Position numbers and translations under genes: made by a program. Below are positions 43,464 through 50,896 of a stretch of 64,000 nucleotides of DNA, piece after piece. Position 1 is the stretch's first letter. Each line of letters begins with the position of its first letter. A model generated the notes under the pieces. The model was given only the letters and a program-made list of their open reading frames with translations, was not told where the DNA came from and made no database searches. The DNA is taken from NCBI RefSeq assembly GCF_000282115.1, contig NZ_AKJY01000014.1, positions 248,001 through 312,000 on the forward strand, read 5' to 3'. This stretch comes from Chryseobacterium populi (GTDB taxonomy: Bacteria; Bacteroidota; Bacteroidia; Flavobacteriales; Weeksellaceae).

Positions 43464-44660
43464 TTAATAACTGTACCCGTTCTTTCTAGCCAATTCTAAA
43501 ATTGATTTTTCAATTGCTTTTCCAAGGTCATCGGAATCCGAACTTCCCCTTTTTTTCATTTCTTCATCAATATAATCCTGGCGTTTTTTAGAAAGCTCTT
43601 CAATATCTTTCTGAATTTTCTCACGTTCTGCAGATTTTATGGCTATGGTTTTTTTTATCTGTTCTTTAGTTTTGCCTTTCAGTTCTGCAGGAAGTTCATC
43701 CTCTTTAACTGATGTGATAAAGTCTGCATCCTTTTCGGCTCTGTCTATCAGATCCCAATGTTCATTTTTGTAAGCATTTTTCCTGGATTTGGCTACCGTT
43801 CTTTCAACAGCATTGGAGACAGACTGTATTTCTGCATTTTTATCCTGCATGACCTGTTTGTTTTTATAGTCGGAACCTTTACTTCCATAATAAATGTAAG
43901 TGTCATTTAATCTGGTGTTATAATCCGAGATCTTCACATCATAAGGAGTTTCAATATAAATCACCTTTCTGTCACTGTTGATATTGAAGTATTTTCCGCT
44001 TCCGAGAGTTGCTCCGTTTTGCCATGAGGTTTGGATACCTTCATCTCTGTCACCACAGAAAATAGTATTGGTGTAGATATTTTTATTTCGGGCTTTTGTA
44101 ATAACATCTTTATAATCGATTCTTCCCTGGTTGAAAGGTTCATTCCCTGCGATATAAATAAGTTTCATACTCTTTTCATTGGCATCCCAGTTCAGATTCA
44201 TCGAAGCATCCCGGATTACGGCACCGCAATATTCGCTTCCGCCATTGGTTCGTAAGGCGAAAAGTTTTTCTGAAACCAAATCGAGGTCCTGAGTGAGTGG
44301 TGTTACCTGTCTGATATAGTTTTCATCGTTCAGGCCGTCGTTACCATATTCGTAAAGGGCAATTTCTATTTGTGGAGCCTGTCCGTTATACTTTAAAGTG
44401 GTCAGGGTATTTACAATATTCCAGAGTCTGGATTTTGCCTGGTCAATCAATCCGTCCATACTGTTGGAAGTATCGAGCAGAAGGGCTACCTGGATTTTAT
44501 TTTCTTTAGCTTTCGGTTGGTTTACCGGAGCTGAAGAATCGTTTTCTATCGATGTTTCTACCGCTGAATTATTTTGATTGGTGCATCGGAAATCTGTCAG
44601 GCTTTTGGAATTTAAAAAAGCTACACCTGCGGCTAATGTTAAAATTTTAAAAGTTGTCAT
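43464..44660 (-). CDS. Exported von Willebrand factor type A domain protein
   Basis: The 398-residue protein has a signal-like N-terminus and a VWA domain (about 55-230) with the metal site DTSNS at 63-67. A long charged helical C-terminal region (about 290-390) with repeated Lys/Glu follows. VWA domains bind proteins through a metal ion. It neighbours a SIMPL protein on the same strand with 114 bases between. The partner is unknown. Confidence 0.85.
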   Translation of the reverse strand: MTTFKILTLAAGVAFLNSKSLTDFRCTNQNNSAVETSIENDSSAPVNQPKAKENKIQVALLLDTSNSMDGLIDQAKSRLWNIVNTLTTLKYNGQAPQIEIALYEYGNDGLNDENYIRQVTPLTQDLDLVSEKLFALRTNGGSEYCGAVIRDASMNLNWDANEKSMKLIYIAGNEPFNQGRIDYKDVITKARNKNIYTNTIFCGDRDEGIQTSWQNGATLGSGKYFNINSDRKVIYIETPYDVKISDYNTRLNDTYIYYGSKGSDYKNKQVMQDKNAEIQSVSNAVERTVAKSRKNAYKNEHWDLIDRAEKDADFITSVKEDELPAELKGKTKEQIKKTIAIKSAEREKIQKDIEELSKKRQDYIDEEMKKRGSSDSDDLGKAIEKSILELARKNGYSY

Positions 44661-44774
44661 TATTTATATTTTTAATAAGGTTATCGGTTGTAATATTGAA
44701 TCTGCATTTCTTTCGGATATGATATTTTGCTTCACAAGAAAGATTGATTTTCTCCGAGTTTCCGCTGTTGATTC

Positions 44775-45446
44775 TTATAAAATCTCATATCTTGTTTTGA
44801 TGCTGTATTTCAATTTGATATTTTCAATATTGTCAAAAGAAAAATCGGGTGCGGCATCAGCTTCCATCTGTACATTACTCAATTTTCTGGCATAAGCCAC
44901 CGGGATCACTGTATCACTTGTATAATCTTCTATTTCTATAACTTCCAGAGGATTTCCTGCTTTTTTACCCATGCTTTCCAGTAAATAATCAGCTTTTTCT
45001 TTTGCTGCTTTTAAGGCCTGTATTTTAACGGTCTTTTTAAACTCTGCAATTTTGGTATTCTTGATTTCAGCAATATTGATATTGCTTACCCATTTTTGGT
45101 TCAGATCTTCAAATAACTTGCTGACATTGGTTTTGGTATTGATTTTAAACTGAAAACTTTTGGTAAACCTGGTTGTTTTTACATAAAGATTCTGGTACAT
45201 TGATTTAAATTTGATATCTTCATTCTTTACCCCGTTATTTTTTAAAGTTTCAAATAATTTTTTCTCATTATCGGCCAGCTCATTTTTGTTGTCTGCTTTG
45301 ATTCCTATATTAAAGATGATTTCATCCGGTTCTACTTCCATTTCAGCAACTCCGGTTACTTCAATTGCATTTTTCTTTACTTCCTGGGCATTGATAAAAC
45401 TTCCTGCGGTAAAGATTCCGATCAATAAAAAATGTCTCAATTTCAT
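44775..45446 (-). CDS. SIMPL domain (DUF541) exported protein
   Basis: I start at MKLRHFLLIGIFTAGSFINA (45446), a signal peptide; the frame is open 32 codons further upstream, but that part overlaps the regulatory repeats. The 223-residue product matches the SIMPL family (VTGVAEMEVEPDEIIFNIGI), periplasmic or outer membrane proteins of unclear role in stress and envelope function. A pair of LytTR-type repeats lies 60-90 bases upstream. Confidence 0.85.
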   Translation of the reverse strand: MKLRHFLLIGIFTAGSFINAQEVKKNAIEVTGVAEMEVEPDEIIFNIGIKADNKNELADNEKKLFETLKNNGVKNEDIKFKSMYQNLYVKTTRFTKSFQFKINTKTNVSKLFEDLNQKWVSNINIAEIKNTKIAEFKKTVKIQALKAAKEKADYLLESMGKKAGNPLEVIEIEDYTSDTVIPVAYARKLSNVQMEADAAPDFSFDNIENIKLKYSIKTRYEIL

Positions 45447-45505
45447 AATTTCTGGTTTTAAATTCTGATGTAAAATTAGCCGGATCCGCAACCTGAAATC
45501 CGGAG

Positions 45506-45536
45506 ACTTGGTGAAATGAGGATTTGACTTGGTGAA
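45506..45536. promoter_or_regulatory. LytTR-type direct repeats upstream of the SIMPL gene
   Basis: ACTTGGTGAA occurs exactly twice, at 45506-45515 and 45527-45536, with starts 21 bases apart, two turns of the helix. The same motif with the same period stands before the histidine kinase operon at 47569. LytTR regulators bind direct repeats of about 9-10 bases with this period. Confidence 0.6.
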
Positions 45537-45542
45537 GCACAA

Positions 45543-45574
45543 TAAAAAAAGACAACCCGTAAGAGTTGCCTTTT
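45543..45574 (-). terminator. Terminator of the amidohydrolase gene
   Basis: On the minus strand GGCAAC pairs with GTTGTC (one G-U) and a T tract follows, 20 bases after the stop. Confidence 0.6.
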
Positions 45575-45593
45575 AAACCTGTATTTTAAAGCT

Positions 45594-47345
45594 TTATTGG
45601 ATAAAATAAACTTTTGATATTTTGTTATTCTTTATTTCATAGACAGCAGTAGCTTCCACTTTTCCAGACTTTTTCATCCCTGAAACGCTTTCTTTATCAA
45701 TCACAAAATTACCATTAATGATCCTGTTGGTGATTTCACAGTGCAGATCAGGCATTCTTTCAAACATTCCGCTATAATCTTTTCTCATCGCCTCTTTTCC
45801 TTTACTTAATAATTTATTCGGGAAAATATAAAGTTCTATGTCCTCAGCATAAGGTTCAAGGAAGGCGTCAATATTTCTTGCGTTATATCCATTCACCTGC
45901 TGCTGCACAAGGTTTTCTGGAGTTGCTTTCACAATTTTATCCGATGCTAAAGGCTGCCCGTTTTTAAACACCATATCGATTTGGGTAAGGTTGTCTAAAT
46001 TTTCGACAGGGTTTGAGTTTAATAAAACAAGATCTGCGATTTTCCCAGTGGTAATGCTTCCTGAAGTATTTTCTTTGTTAAAGATCTTAACAGGATTGAT
46101 GGTTGCCGACTGTAAAACCTGCCAGTTGTTCATTCCGCTTTTCTTCATAGCATTAAGTTCCGCAATAAAAGAAGTTGCGTGCTGCGTCCCTATATTTCCG
46201 GCATCTGTTCCAACTGCAATCGTTACACCTCCGTCTGACAGCTTTTTCAGATTCATAGATCTGATGGAATCTTTTTTTCCGATCTGAGCATTGACTTGCG
46301 GAAGATTAAAACGTTTTTTGAGCTTATTGATCATCAAAGAATCGGCGGAATCAGATAAATGTTTTAGATCATACATCGACCCGATGGCCAGTGGATTTGC
46401 ATTTTCCAGTTCATAGCTGTTGTAATTGTTTTTCTGTGCATACGTTTTATAATAATTGTCTGCTACCGTAAGAGTAGGGCTCAAAACTACTTTTTTATCC
46501 TTTAAAAGCTTTACAAAATTATCGGGAACAACTTCGTCTTCTATATCATGTACCAGAAAATCGGCGCCGTTTTGTACTGCAATCTGGGCGGTGATTCTTT
46601 CTGTAGCATGTACCGCTACTTTTAAATTGTTTTTATGAGCTTCTTCAATGACCATTTTTACAATGGGCTCATATTTCTTTGCTTCAGCTTCCATTTCTTT
46701 TGGATTTGCCATTACGATATACCATATTTTGATAAGATCAGGTTTGTAAGGAAGCTGTTCCTGTACATATTTTTTCGCCTCTTCGGCAGATGCAACCAGT
46801 TTTAGAGGTTCATCCTTATCAAGGTTTTTAAACGCTTCAGGCTCATAGGTAGTGATCAATGGCCCGGCCATATAAACAGTCGGTAAATTGGTTTTCTTTG
46901 AAAATGAATCCCTGAGGGCAAGAAAATTATAGGTTGATCCCACATCAATCATAGAAGTGATTCCGCTTTTAAGATAACGCAGTAGGAAATCTTCCATATT
47001 CTGATGTACCCAATTGATTTCTTTATCATAAGGCACATGTTTTCTCAGATCCAACGCATCCGGTCTTGCATAGAGACCTCCACTTTGAAAAAAATGAATA
47101 TGGGTGTCTGTCATTCCCGGCATCAGAAATTTTCCGTTTCCGTTAATGATATCTGCATTCTGGGGAATTTTTATTTTTTTCGCAGGCTTAATATCTGAAA
47201 TGATGTTTTGGCTGATCACTATTGTTTGATCCGGGATCAGTTTTTTATTGATGACATCAACCACTGTTACGTTCTGAATGTAGGTCTGCGCATCTACCTT
47301 ATAGATCAAAAAGTAAATCAAAAATGACAGGTAAAATCTTTTCAT
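45594..47345 (-). CDS. Exported amidohydrolase with C-terminal SnoaL-like domain
   Basis: The 583-residue protein has a signal peptide (about 1-19) and an amidohydrolase domain (about 20-450). Metal motifs are TDTHIHFF, AVHATE and GTDAG. The last 115 residues (LVQQQVNGYNARNIDAFLEP) form a SnoaL/NTF2-like pocket. The enzyme should hydrolyse a cyclic amide, imide or peptide outside the cytoplasm; the added pocket may bind substrate. A fusion of these two domains is uncommon but known in Bacteroidota. Confidence 0.85.
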   Translation of the reverse strand: MKRFYLSFLIYFLIYKVDAQTYIQNVTVVDVINKKLIPDQTIVISQNIISDIKPAKKIKIPQNADIINGNGKFLMPGMTDTHIHFFQSGGLYARPDALDLRKHVPYDKEINWVHQNMEDFLLRYLKSGITSMIDVGSTYNFLALRDSFSKKTNLPTVYMAGPLITTYEPEAFKNLDKDEPLKLVASAEEAKKYVQEQLPYKPDLIKIWYIVMANPKEMEAEAKKYEPIVKMVIEEAHKNNLKVAVHATERITAQIAVQNGADFLVHDIEDEVVPDNFVKLLKDKKVVLSPTLTVADNYYKTYAQKNNYNSYELENANPLAIGSMYDLKHLSDSADSLMINKLKKRFNLPQVNAQIGKKDSIRSMNLKKLSDGGVTIAVGTDAGNIGTQHATSFIAELNAMKKSGMNNWQVLQSATINPVKIFNKENTSGSITTGKIADLVLLNSNPVENLDNLTQIDMVFKNGQPLASDKIVKATPENLVQQQVNGYNARNIDAFLEPYAEDIELYIFPNKLLSKGKEAMRKDYSGMFERMPDLHCEITNRIINGNFVIDKESVSGMKKSGKVEATAVYEIKNNKISKVYFIQ

Positions 47346-47568
47346 GTGTTTTTATTTAATCTTATTTTTTCAAATATAATAAAATGGTACCTAAAATTTT
47401 TATAAGATTTCTATGAGAAGATTATAACCCAGCTATTTGTTTTTTGATATCATCCTTTACACTCAAATTCAATATATACAGAATTCCGGATTTTCATTAT
47501 TAGTTTCTGTTTAAAATATTTTAATCAGGATAAAAATTTAACCCCGGAGTCGAGGGTCGGGAAGGTAA

Positions 47569-47599
47569 ACTTGGTAAGACTCTGGCTTCACTTGGTGAA
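47569..47599. promoter_or_regulatory. LytTR-type direct repeats upstream of the kinase operon
   Basis: ACTTGGTAAG (47569-47578) and ACTTGGTGAA (47590-47599) are 21 bases apart start to start and end 5 bases before the -33 element of the kinase promoter. This is a typical activator position and implies autoregulation by the LytTR protein encoded in the operon. Confidence 0.65.
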
Positions 47600-47604
47600 T
47601 AGCT

Positions 47605-47635
47605 TTTGGACAAACTATATATATGTATATCTTTG
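47605..47635 (+). promoter_or_regulatory. Promoter of the histidine kinase operon
   Basis: TTTG (47605-47608) and TATCTTTG (47628-47635) are 19 bases apart, a full match to the flavobacterial pattern. The ATG follows only 4 bases after the -7 element, so the mRNA may be leaderless or start at a second ATG (47646). Confidence 0.65.
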
Positions 47636-47639
47636 TTTT

Positions 47640-49433
47640 ATGAAAATGCTGCGACATTTGGTATTTCTTTTTTTGATCTGTTTTGGGAATATATTGTATT
47701 CTCAAAGCAATAATAATGTGGTTCAGGAGGTTCAGGTTCAGAGTAAAAAGCTTAGAAAGGCTGTTGATGACAAAGACCCGTCTGCCCAGGCCGATTCTTA
47801 CTATAATATAGGAGAAACGTTTTTCAACAACGGGAATTTCTCAAAAAGCGAAGAATATTTCACTAAGGCTAAAACCATCTATGAGCAGCTGAACGATAAA
47901 TCCAATATTGAGAAAGTGAGCCGGAAACTGGCTCAGTCGCAGGAAAAACAAAATAAAATAACACCTGCAATCAGCAATTACAGCAGAGCAGCAGAAGTAA
48001 ATTACTCTTCAAGAGCCAAAGCTGTCAATTCTAATGATGCAGCAAGACTTTCCTCATCGTCGCCGGAATTAAAAGCCGAAGCAATACAAAGTAATATAGA
48101 TCTCAGCCGGAAAGAGGATGAAAAAGAAGAACTTGCGACGAGCTATAGCCAGATGGCAGATGTCTACATACAGCAGAAAGATATTCCGAAAGCCGAAGAA
48201 AACCTTAATAATGCTTATAAATTATCTAAAGAACAGGCTCCACAGCAGGCTTTGGAGATCAATCAGAAGCTAACCGATTTTTATGTCGGAAATAAAAATT
48301 ATGATAAAGCCATTGAGGCAAAAAAAAATGTACTGAAAGAAGATTTTGTAAAAAGTAATTCACAAGAAGAAGTTGAGCAGATTCAAGAGCTGGCTGATAT
48401 TTATATTAAGAAAAATGATCCCGGAGAAGCTGTTGATCTTCTGAAAAAATCCTACAGTTTAGCGATAGAAAAAGGGCATACGATGGAAGCACAGAAAAGT
48501 GTGAAAAAACTGGACAGCCTCTATAATGTTTCTGATAATACCGATGCTTCCGTAAAGCTGTATCGCGATTTTCTGGGAAAGCTGCCGGATCTAGTTGCCA
48601 AAGACAGAAGTCTGGTTGATAATAAAATCCTTGAAGATACCGAACAGAGAATTGTACAGCTGGAAAAAGAAAGGGAGCTGAAAGATGAGCTTATCCGTAA
48701 AAAAAATGTGTTTAATTATGGCCTCATCGGAGCTTTGATTGTATTATCAGGATTAATCATATTTATTTTTCTGACGTTGAGAAAAGTTCAGATCAAGAAT
48801 AAGAAAATTGCCCTGCAATCGCTTCGGAGAGAAATGAATCCGCATTTTATCTTTAACAGTTTAAATAGTGTCAATCATTTTATTGCCACGAATAACGAGC
48901 TTGAAGCCAATCAGTATTTAACCAAATTTTCAAAGCTGATGCGTGGTGTAATGGAAAATTCTACAGAAGATTTTATTCCGTTTCAGCAGGAGCTGGATTT
49001 ATTACAGAATTATCTCGCTCTCGAAAAAACACGCTTTGCAGATAAATTTGATTATGAAATTAATGTCGATGAAAATCTGAGTATGCAAAGCCTGCAGGTT
49101 CCGGGAATGCTGATTCAGCCATTTTTGGAAAATGCAGTCTGGCACGGATTAAGATACAGGGAAGATAAAGGATTTCTGAAACTGAGTTTTGAAAAAAATG
49201 ATCAGCGTTTAAAAATTACCATTGAAGATGACGGGATCGGAATTGAAGAAAGTAAAAAGCAAAAAACACAGCATCAAAAGGCAAGAGAAGGCCGTGGAAT
49301 GAAAAATACACTGGAAAGGATCAAACTGCTGAATGACCTGTATCATCAGGATATTCAATGTAAAGTCACCGATAAAAAAGATGGCCCGGGAGTTCTGGTA
49401 GAGATCAATTATGAGTTAATGAGTTATAAATGA
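47640..49433 (+). CDS. TPR sensor histidine kinase, LytS/YehU type
   Basis: I start at 47640; a longer frame to 47571 would cross the promoter. The 597-residue protein has a signal peptide, TPR repeats (about 30-330), one membrane segment (about 362-383) and a His kinase domain of the PF06580 type. The phosphorylated His402 lies in MNPHFIFNSLNSVNHF, and the ATP part has GMLIQPFLENAVWHG. It senses a periplasmic signal, perhaps peptides, and phosphorylates the LytTR protein encoded 125 bases later. Confidence 0.9.
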   Translation: MKMLRHLVFLFLICFGNILYSQSNNNVVQEVQVQSKKLRKAVDDKDPSAQADSYYNIGETFFNNGNFSKSEEYFTKAKTIYEQLNDKSNIEKVSRKLAQSQEKQNKITPAISNYSRAAEVNYSSRAKAVNSNDAARLSSSSPELKAEAIQSNIDLSRKEDEKEELATSYSQMADVYIQQKDIPKAEENLNNAYKLSKEQAPQQALEINQKLTDFYVGNKNYDKAIEAKKNVLKEDFVKSNSQEEVEQIQELADIYIKKNDPGEAVDLLKKSYSLAIEKGHTMEAQKSVKKLDSLYNVSDNTDASVKLYRDFLGKLPDLVAKDRSLVDNKILEDTEQRIVQLEKERELKDELIRKKNVFNYGLIGALIVLSGLIIFIFLTLRKVQIKNKKIALQSLRREMNPHFIFNSLNSVNHFIATNNELEANQYLTKFSKLMRGVMENSTEDFIPFQQELDLLQNYLALEKTRFADKFDYEINVDENLSMQSLQVPGMLIQPFLENAVWHGLRYREDKGFLKLSFEKNDQRLKITIEDDGIGIEESKKQKTQHQKAREGRGMKNTLERIKLLNDLYHQDIQCKVTDKKDGPGVLVEINYELMSYK

Positions 49434-49474
49434 TGAGTTATGAGTTATGAGTTATGAGTTATGAGTTATGAGTT
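49433..49474. repeat. Six tandem copies of the heptamer ATGAGTT
   Basis: Six exact units run from the last base of the kinase stop codon to 49474. Earlier partial units are in the last codons of the kinase. Similar degenerate strings occur in the gap before the second M13 gene (about 55490-55530, on the opposite strand). It is a dispersed microsatellite, and copy number may vary between strains. Confidence 0.85.
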
Positions 49475-49558
49475 TCGGGCTATAAAATTACCGGTCATAA
49501 TTTCTCTCAACTAGAAACTCTCAATTTTAATCAATAACCTATATAATATCTGAAAAAA

Positions 49559-50293
49559 ATGAGAATAAAAGCTGTAATCGTAGATGATGAAATCATTGCA
49601 AGAGAAGTTCTGAGGAATTATCTTACCAAATACTGTCCGCAGATTGAGATCCTCGGGGAAGCTGAAAATATAAAAGAAGCAGTCCCGTTAATTGTGGAAA
49701 AGAAGCCTCAACTGGTTTTTCTGGATGTGGAAATGCCTTATGGAAATGCTTTTGATGTCTTGGAAGCTACCAAAGATTATTCTTATGAAACCATTTTTAT
49801 TACTGCATTTTCCCAGTATTCTCTGCAGGCGCTTAATAAGTCGGCAAGTTATTATATTCTGAAACCAATCGATATCCAGGAGCTTATTCTGGCGGTGAAT
49901 AAGGTTTCTGAGAGTATTGAAAAAAATGAAGAGCTCAACCGGAATAAAATCTTACTGGAGAATCTCAAATTAAAACCTGAAAAACAACAGCTTATTCTGC
50001 CAACTTTACAAGGGTTTGATGTGGTGAAAACTGAAGATATCCTGAGGCTTCAGGCAGATGGAAATTTCACACAGGTCTATCTTACGAATGGTACAAAGAA
50101 AATGGTCTGCCGGTTTTTAAAGCATTTTGATGACTTGCTGGAAGTACCTTTTGTGAGGGTGCACCGTTCTCATATTATCAATACCAATTATGTGAAGTCT
50201 TACCATAAAAGCGGCACGGTAATGCTTGCGGATGAGGTGGAGATTGAAGTTTCAGGGACATTTAAAGATGCCTTCCTGAAAGTTTTCTCTTAG
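49559..50293 (+). CDS. LytTR family response regulator
   Basis: The 244-residue protein has a receiver domain (1-120) with DD at 9-10, phosphorylated Asp56 in VFLDVEMP and a Lys near residue 105. A LytTR DNA-binding domain follows (about 140-242; LQADGNFTQVYLTNG and VRVHRSHIINTNYV). It is the partner of the TPR kinase and the likely binder of the 21-base-period repeats at 47569 and 45506. Confidence 0.95.
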   Translation: MRIKAVIVDDEIIAREVLRNYLTKYCPQIEILGEAENIKEAVPLIVEKKPQLVFLDVEMPYGNAFDVLEATKDYSYETIFITAFSQYSLQALNKSASYYILKPIDIQELILAVNKVSESIEKNEELNRNKILLENLKLKPEKQQLILPTLQGFDVVKTEDILRLQADGNFTQVYLTNGTKKMVCRFLKHFDDLLEVPFVRVHRSHIINTNYVKSYHKSGTVMLADEVEIEVSGTFKDAFLKVFS

Positions 50294-50353
50294 AATAACA
50301 GCCTAAGGGCATTATTTTTGGACTTTTCATAGTAACCACAAACGAATTTTATT

Positions 50354-50896
50354 ATGAAAAATTTTCAGAAAATTGCCATTCCCGTTTCGTTGGGTATTTT
50401 GGGGTTAGTGATCTTTAATTCCTTTTCGGTGAGAATTCCCAAAGGAGCAGTGGCTGTAGCCCATTTCAGACCGGAAAAATATTTAGGAAAATGGTACGAA
50501 ATTGCCAGACTCGATTATAAATTCGAGAAAGACATGGATAATGTAACGGCTATCTATTCTCAGAATCCTAACGGAACAATCCGTGTTGATAATAAAGGAT
50601 ACAACTATATCAAAAAAGAATGGAAAGAATCGACAGGTGAGGCCCGGTTTGTAAAAGATAAAACAGAGGCCCGCCTGAAAGTATCTTTCTTTAAGCCTGT
50701 CTGGGCTGGTTATAACGTGATTGATATTGACGAAAATTACCAGTATGCTCTTGTAGCCGGGAACAGTTTAAAATACCTATGGATCTTATCCCGCACCACT
50801 ACAATCCCTGAAAGCATAAGACAAAGATTTTTAGAAAAAGCAAAGAAAATAGGTTACAATACAAATGAACTGATCTGGGTAAGGCATTATCAATAA
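50354..50896 (+). CDS. Lipocalin family protein, Blc-like
   Basis: The 180-residue protein has an N-terminal membrane or signal segment (about 8-26) and the lipocalin motif KYLGKWYEIARLDYKFE, with YNVIDIDENYQYALVAG and a C-terminal Arg-containing end. This is the bacterial Blc group that binds fatty acids or lysolipids at the envelope. The lipobox Cys of Blc is absent, so it may be anchored by its N-terminal helix. Confidence 0.85.
   Translation: MKNFQKIAIPVSLGILGLVIFNSFSVRIPKGAVAVAHFRPEKYLGKWYEIARLDYKFEKDMDNVTAIYSQNPNGTIRVDNKGYNYIKKEWKESTGEARFVKDKTEARLKVSFFKPVWAGYNVIDIDENYQYALVAGNSLKYLWILSRTTTIPESIRQRFLEKAKKIGYNTNELIWVRHYQ

Follow-up and report, generated by a model that had tools for sequence, protein, structure and literature searches.

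The question raised by this locus is whether a short direct repeat standing before two of its promoters is the site of the LytTR-type response regulator encoded within it, and how a site with a direction of its own could serve genes transcribed both ways. The window, by which we mean the whole 64,000-nucleotide stretch of the Chryseobacterium populi genome that was analysed, had been read from the sequence alone as carrying such repeats before a TPR kinase/LytTR operon and before a gene for an exported SIMPL protein. Both pairs are present on the forward strand where that reading had placed them. Site S2, ACTTGGTAAG-N11-ACTTGGTGAA (47569–47599), is upstream of the kinase operon in a position that is conserved in relatives, and site S1, ACTTGGTGAA-N11-ACTTGGTGAA (45506–45536), is upstream of SIMPL, 59 nt from the start codon. 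Each is a 31-base tag with two copies of ACTTGGTGAA at a 21-base period; the copies are identical in S1, and in S2 the first has two changes. SIMPL is on the minus strand, and the repeats are oriented toward the kinase promoter and away from SIMPL.

The gene to the right of S2 (47640–49433, forward strand) encodes a sensor kinase of 597 aa with His_kinase (PF06580, 76.9 bits), TPR_12 (60.3 bits) and HATPase domains, in which a signal peptide and one transmembrane helix (both read from the sequence) accompany periplasmic TPR repeats. It is followed by the response regulator gene (49559–50293, forward strand; 244 aa), whose product has a receiver domain (PF00072, 60.8 bits) and a LytTR domain (PF04397, 46.8 bits against a cut-off of 22.6 bits). 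In all aligned orthologues the phosphoacceptor D56 is invariant and the LytTR segments RFLK and RVH-SHIIN are conserved; homologues with solved structures match through the receiver domain only, among the matches listed. The locus therefore has the features of a LytTR-type regulator with its cognate His_kinase, namely a receiver, a C-terminal LytTR domain, D56 and a PF06580 partner in the same operon, together with repeats of 9–10 bp at a period of ~21 upstream of a −35/−33 element. A Blc-type outer-membrane lipocalin gene (50354–50896, forward strand) begins 60 nt after the regulator gene, and as this adjacency is kept in most loci the lipocalin is possibly the third gene of the kinase operon. 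Two other features of this part of the locus are of note. One is a 7-bp tandem repeat, TTATGAG, present in about 9 copies at 49409–49474 across the end of the kinase gene and the kinase-regulator gap, and its copy number could vary. The second is an exported protein of 230–245 aa with no Pfam family (cluster c12), which is encoded between kinase and regulator in ~19 of 60 loci (including L067, L068 and L070–L072).

To the left of S1 are the SIMPL (DUF541) gene, which encodes an exported protein of 223 aa (44775–45446, minus strand) and is the predicted S1 target, and directly downstream of it a gene for a VWA-domain exported protein of 398 aa (43464–44660, minus strand). The VWA gene is probably in the SIMPL transcript in this window and has its own site in other species. 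Between S1 and S2 is a gene for an amidohydrolase of 583 aa with a SnoaL-like domain (45594–47345, minus strand), an inserted unit that is absent from most genomes. A hairpin with a T-run, read by eye (45541–45575, minus strand), adjoins S1 and is the likely terminator of the amidohydrolase gene. No Rfam match was found at 44400–50400, and no structured RNA or terminator family was recognized there.

Within the C. populi genome the two pairs stand alone. There were no pair matches in 100 shuffles of the window, and S1 and S2 are the only matches at two or fewer mismatches in the whole 4.48 Mb genome. Allowing three mismatches adds two matches genome-wide, as against 3 and 4 for a reversed control pattern, and with a looser pattern (24 matches in total versus 29 for the control) S1 and S2 match at 0–1 mismatch and the rest are background. 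The sequence-only reading had named a motif frequent at random as grounds for refutation. The genome-wide search gives two good sites, both at this locus, and neither the strict nor the looser scan of the C. populi genome revealed regulon members beyond the locus above background. Extra matches at two mismatches in relatives are as frequent as with the reversed control.

A full −33/−7 promoter had also been described after S2, and this is borne out by TTTG at 47605–47608, starting 5 bases past the pair, and TATCTTTG at 47628–47635. The kinase promoter's −33 element, TTTTG (47604–47608, forward strand), is conserved among kinase promoters of the 40-nt class, and the −7 element TATCTTTG (consensus TAnnTTTG, forward strand) is 28 nt after S2. 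The sigma-A −7 box of Flavobacterium occupies −12 to −5 (PMC9723704), which puts the predicted kinase +1 at 47640, the A of the ATG; and because the −7 box ends 4 nt before that ATG, the kinase mRNA is predicted to be leaderless, with its 5' end on or beside the start codon, unless translation begins at the ATG at 47646. We note that TATCTTTGTTTTATG is also conserved in the 40-nt class, and that a second class of kinase promoter, found in a subset of species (L067, L068 and L070 among others), has the site 55 nt from the start, a TTACTTTG box and a leader of ~40 nt, with the site-to-box distance unchanged. In the other direction, the SIMPL promoter has a −7 element, TAATTTTAC (45470–45478, minus strand), 27 nt from the S1 edge, and its +1 is predicted near 45466. 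SIMPL-type promoters have this imperfect −7 box and not TAnnTTTG, and no clear −33.

The amidohydrolase gene was considered as a further target. A weak −7-like box, TAAATTTT (47533–47540, minus strand), faces it 28 nt from S2 and is a possible promoter element in the window. Amidohydrolase genes in the other genomes that have one lack a −7 box at the required distance, and we rejected the gene as a conserved direct target, which it probably is not.

Conservation of the pair follows that of the regulator. It is present at two or fewer mismatches in 166 of 173 Chryseobacterium genomes, and nearly all of the 0–1 mismatch matches, among those listed, form one cluster per genome on one strand. The seven genomes without a pair have no regulator orthologue (best match 37–39% or none), and those with one site have an orthologue that is 87–90% identical. 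When SIMPL and VWA were sought in the regulator-less Chryseobacterium genomes both genes were absent too; because absence mostly reflects loss of the entire locus, co-occurrence by itself does not point to the regulator in particular. Three individual genomes call for comment. G161 has no regulator orthologue and a single pattern match of unlocated position. G021 appeared to have sites without a regulator, and was rejected as such a case when its contig was seen to end inside the kinase gene, an assembly gap. In G144 (L128) a single in-frame TAA interrupts the regulator orthologue and only one site-pattern match is left, and the system may be decaying.

Sixty loci were mapped, and sites are present in all of them except the outgroup L099 (G195), where no site was found near the regulator homologue at 50% identity. 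The site is usually 58–68 nt upstream of the SIMPL start, and 39–40 or 55 nt before most kinase starts (73 or 84–88 nt in a few matched further in). It is also found about 102–194 nt upstream of VWA genes and about 57–62 nt upstream of genes for an exported protein of the DUF4139/DUF4140 family (531–534 aa). The simplest arrangement is seen in L066, L069 and L085, in which one site is common to divergent SIMPL and kinase genes. Elsewhere extra units are present between SIMPL and kinase, including the amidohydrolase, a second SIMPL, a second VWA protein and small exported proteins, and each boundary of these units has a site. The pattern suggests a wider and modular regulon of SIMPL, VWA, DUF4139, a second SIMPL and other exported proteins, with a site of its own for each unit.

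The spacing between site and promoter is nearly fixed. Among 216 distinct sites at 81 Chryseobacterium loci, 215 have a TAnnTTT or TTACTTTG box 26–29 nt from the site edge, as against a background rate for TAnnTTT of 0.25% per offset, and as the sites share descent these counts are a measure of constraint and not of independent trials. The typical edge-to-box distance is 27–28 nt in either direction (forward boxes 27–29 nt beyond the site, reverse boxes 26–28 nt); 44 of the 215 sites have a forward box only, 132 a reverse box only and 39 a box on both sides. With the −7 box placed at −12 to −5, as in Flavobacterium (PMC9723704), the site edge would be at about −40 in both directions.

Regulator orthologues (65–84% identical) were found in 19 genomes outside Chryseobacterium, 15 of one genus in another family (65–69%) and four others of the same family (72–84%), and 18 of the 19 have sites at the locus. 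The −7 box is present at 26–29 nt in 28 of 28 sites outside Chryseobacterium, on both sides in seven. In all 15 genomes of the distant genus (g3) the site is between VWA and kinase; most have a first copy that has become AAATGGTGAA beside an intact second copy (L098, L238–L251), with L248 and L251 keeping ACTTGGT in both copies. In three genomes (G312, G313 and G263) sites precede the kinase and/or VWA, DUF4139 or second-SIMPL genes, and in two that have the VWA gene and lack the regulator (G314 and G315) there is no site upstream of it. Conservation of the repeats upstream of orthologous operons, on which the sequence-only reading had staked its interpretation, thus holds throughout Chryseobacterium, in other genera and in another family.

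Informative cases are provided by three genomes in which the kinase operon and the targets are apart, two of Chryseobacterium (G004 and G030) and one outside the genus (G270). The target site is kept in all three and the kinase site in two, and the −7 box is 27–28 nt from the site edge in every case. In G004 and G030 the kinase-regulator genes and SIMPL are distant from one another, with a site 39–40 nt upstream of the kinase and SIMPL having its own. G270 has its regulator and kinase genes on contig C118, where there is no site; the sole close match in that genome precedes a DUF4139 gene (60.6% identical), which is on contig C144. Since sites persist after relocation, they track target promoters and not mere neighbourhood; and since the G270 kinase promoter is without a site, autoregulation would not be universal.

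From these comparisons we infer autoregulation of the kinase operon and control of SIMPL, and the prediction that the pair is the site of the locus's own LytTR regulator is well supported. Very probably the regulator occupies the pair, immediately upstream of the −33, and activates its own operon and the divergent genes for exported proteins. The periplasmic TPR part of the kinase would sense an envelope signal and the kinase would phosphorylate D56 of the regulator, a dimer of which would then sit head-to-tail on the two copies, on one helix face and two turns apart, with its edge at ~−40. So bound, it would recruit sigma-A polymerase through a contact at −33. Activation of the kinase-regulator operon would constitute positive feedback, with S2 driving kinase and regulator, and perhaps the lipocalin, and S1 driving SIMPL and then VWA; elsewhere the divergent targets would be DUF4139, a second SIMPL and others. 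Binding, its dependence on phosphorylation, activation over repression and the signal are all steps that we infer.

The sign of regulation is not readable from the geometry alone. A regulator that binds the same pair and represses, blocking polymerase beside the −33 so that the locus is shut until a signal arrives, would also account for a site that abuts the −33, and repressors too use edge positions near −40. However, LytTR regulators with repeats so placed are mostly activators (AgrA, SilA and HdrR; PMC4227749, PMC2766830, PMC6193735), and the imperfect TAATTTTAC box and absence of a clear −33 at SIMPL-type promoters suit a promoter that needs help. On both grounds, the behaviour of comparable regulators and the apparent weakness of SIMPL-type promoters by themselves, we prefer activation, and we regard repression as unlikely.

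A second question is whether the direct repeat is what is read. The consensus, ACTTGGTGAAa......TTTCACTTGGTGAA, includes an inverted core, GTGAAA-N6-TTTCAC, which 152 of the 216 Chryseobacterium sites match at 5 or more of 6 core positions, and two-way use at equal spacing would fit another, symmetric factor reading this core, with the direct repeat secondary. Several observations make such a factor very improbable. At the position needed to complete the palindrome, 31% of sites have G in place of C, mostly those at one-way kinase promoters, and nearly all of the 15 distant-genus genomes have G there, whereas the direct copies agree at 9–10 of 10 positions in 177 of the 216 sites. The outer TTG and ACTTG letters, which are outside the core, are as well conserved as the core in Chryseobacterium, and no other regulator gene accompanies the sites in G270 or the relocated loci. 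As for the geometry of the repeat itself, none of the 130 exact pairs departs from a period of 21. All 216 sites are on the kinase-regulator strand, and are reversed relative to the SIMPL, VWA and DUF4139 genes; half-sites number 355 on that strand versus 4 on the opposite one. We retain the direct-repeat reading because the symmetric base is often broken while the direct copies agree.

That the pairs are non-regulatory copy-and-paste intergenic repeats, or insertion targets flanking exchanged cargo, fits with genomes having SIMPL-kinase cargo usually having one more copy in the same orientation, so that direct repeats flank the cargo, and with the single copy and no cargo in L066, L069 and L085, but it is scarcely credible given that it offers no reason for the fixed 27–28 nt to the −7 box (243 of 244 sites) or the start-codon spacing, that no copies have spread beyond the locus, that the spacers differ among copies, which are thus not recent copies, and that the site remains with relocated targets.

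With the pair taken as the site of the LytTR regulator acting on the promoters beside it, the same polar site would serve both directions because the −7 box is 27–28 nt from the edge on either side. One site apparently serves both polarities at equal spacing, and sometimes two divergent promoters together, which is not expected of a polar direct repeat if the dimer touches polymerase with one face. The partial symmetry of the site may be what permits two-way use. One proposal, which we think has about an even chance of being correct, is that a single head-to-tail LytTR dimer would activate sigma-A promoters on both sides at 27–28 nt with its orientation irrelevant, and that the locus would grow by exported-protein genes each bringing or acquiring its own copy of this two-way promoter unit.

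Pairs of TPR histidine kinase and LytTR regulator are common in Bacteroidota, and they have the architecture found here (PF06580 with TPR; PF00072–PF04397). In the open-licence papers searched we found no described site or regulon for a kinase-coupled Bacteroidota LytTR regulator, and a literature search on SIMPL/DUF4139 regulation in Bacteroidota gave nothing useful. One close likeness is to SilA-SilB of streptococci (PMC2766830), where 10-bp direct repeats with an 11-bp spacer are also upstream of promoters and a local regulon includes divergent promoter pairs (P5/P6 there) near the locus. That system differs in being a peptide pheromone system, with a pair for each promoter and another repeat sequence, and its kinase is without the TPR periplasmic sensor present here; no peptide-pheromone exporter is among the annotated neighbours of the C. 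populi locus. AgrA-AgrC of staphylococci (PMC4227749) is another example of a LytTR regulator acting through direct repeats on divergent promoters (P2/P3), its own operon included, with positive feedback. There, however, each promoter has one pair with the proximal repeat centred near −60, as against an edge at −40 here, the −35/−10 spacing is suboptimal and the signal is a peptide. The LRS systems (HdrRM and BrsRM; PMC6193735) also have direct repeats, 4–11 bp upstream of the −35, and autoregulation, and LRS-like operons of Bacteroides likewise have an 11-bp spacer (PMC6193735). They couple a receiver-less regulator to an inhibitory membrane protein, whereas the C. populi locus encodes a receiver domain and a histidine kinase and so is not a member of this group. 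The locus would thus be of a known kind, AgrA/SilA-like, with an unusual geometry in which one polar site is placed equally for two directions.

If correct, these predictions provide a precise site and a small regulon for a kinase-coupled Bacteroidota LytTR regulator, and through it a functional link for SIMPL, DUF4139 and VWA proteins of unknown function. A polar site used both ways at a single spacing also raises the question of how LytTR dimers contact RNA polymerase.

The 21-bp period is not confined to this locus. LytTR regulators are abundant in Bacteroidota; the C. populi genome encodes 12 over the cut-off, and among 10 other LytTR operons examined there are 21-bp direct repeats of other sequence at two clear instances and one weaker. 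The clear instances (L257 and L259, contigs C5 and C35) have near-perfect repeats of the TTTTGTATAAT type within ~100 nt upstream of the kinase, and the weaker pair is at L253. Spacings from 14 to 32 were scanned, and 21 was the single one at which two operons matched at 10 or more of 11 positions. This fits 21 bp being the LytTR site spacing in the C. populi genome, in what is a small sample, and a 21-bp rule shared with two or three other LytTR operons offers a route to the remaining LytTR sites. At L257 there are two TTTTGTATAAT-type pairs, in opposite orientation.
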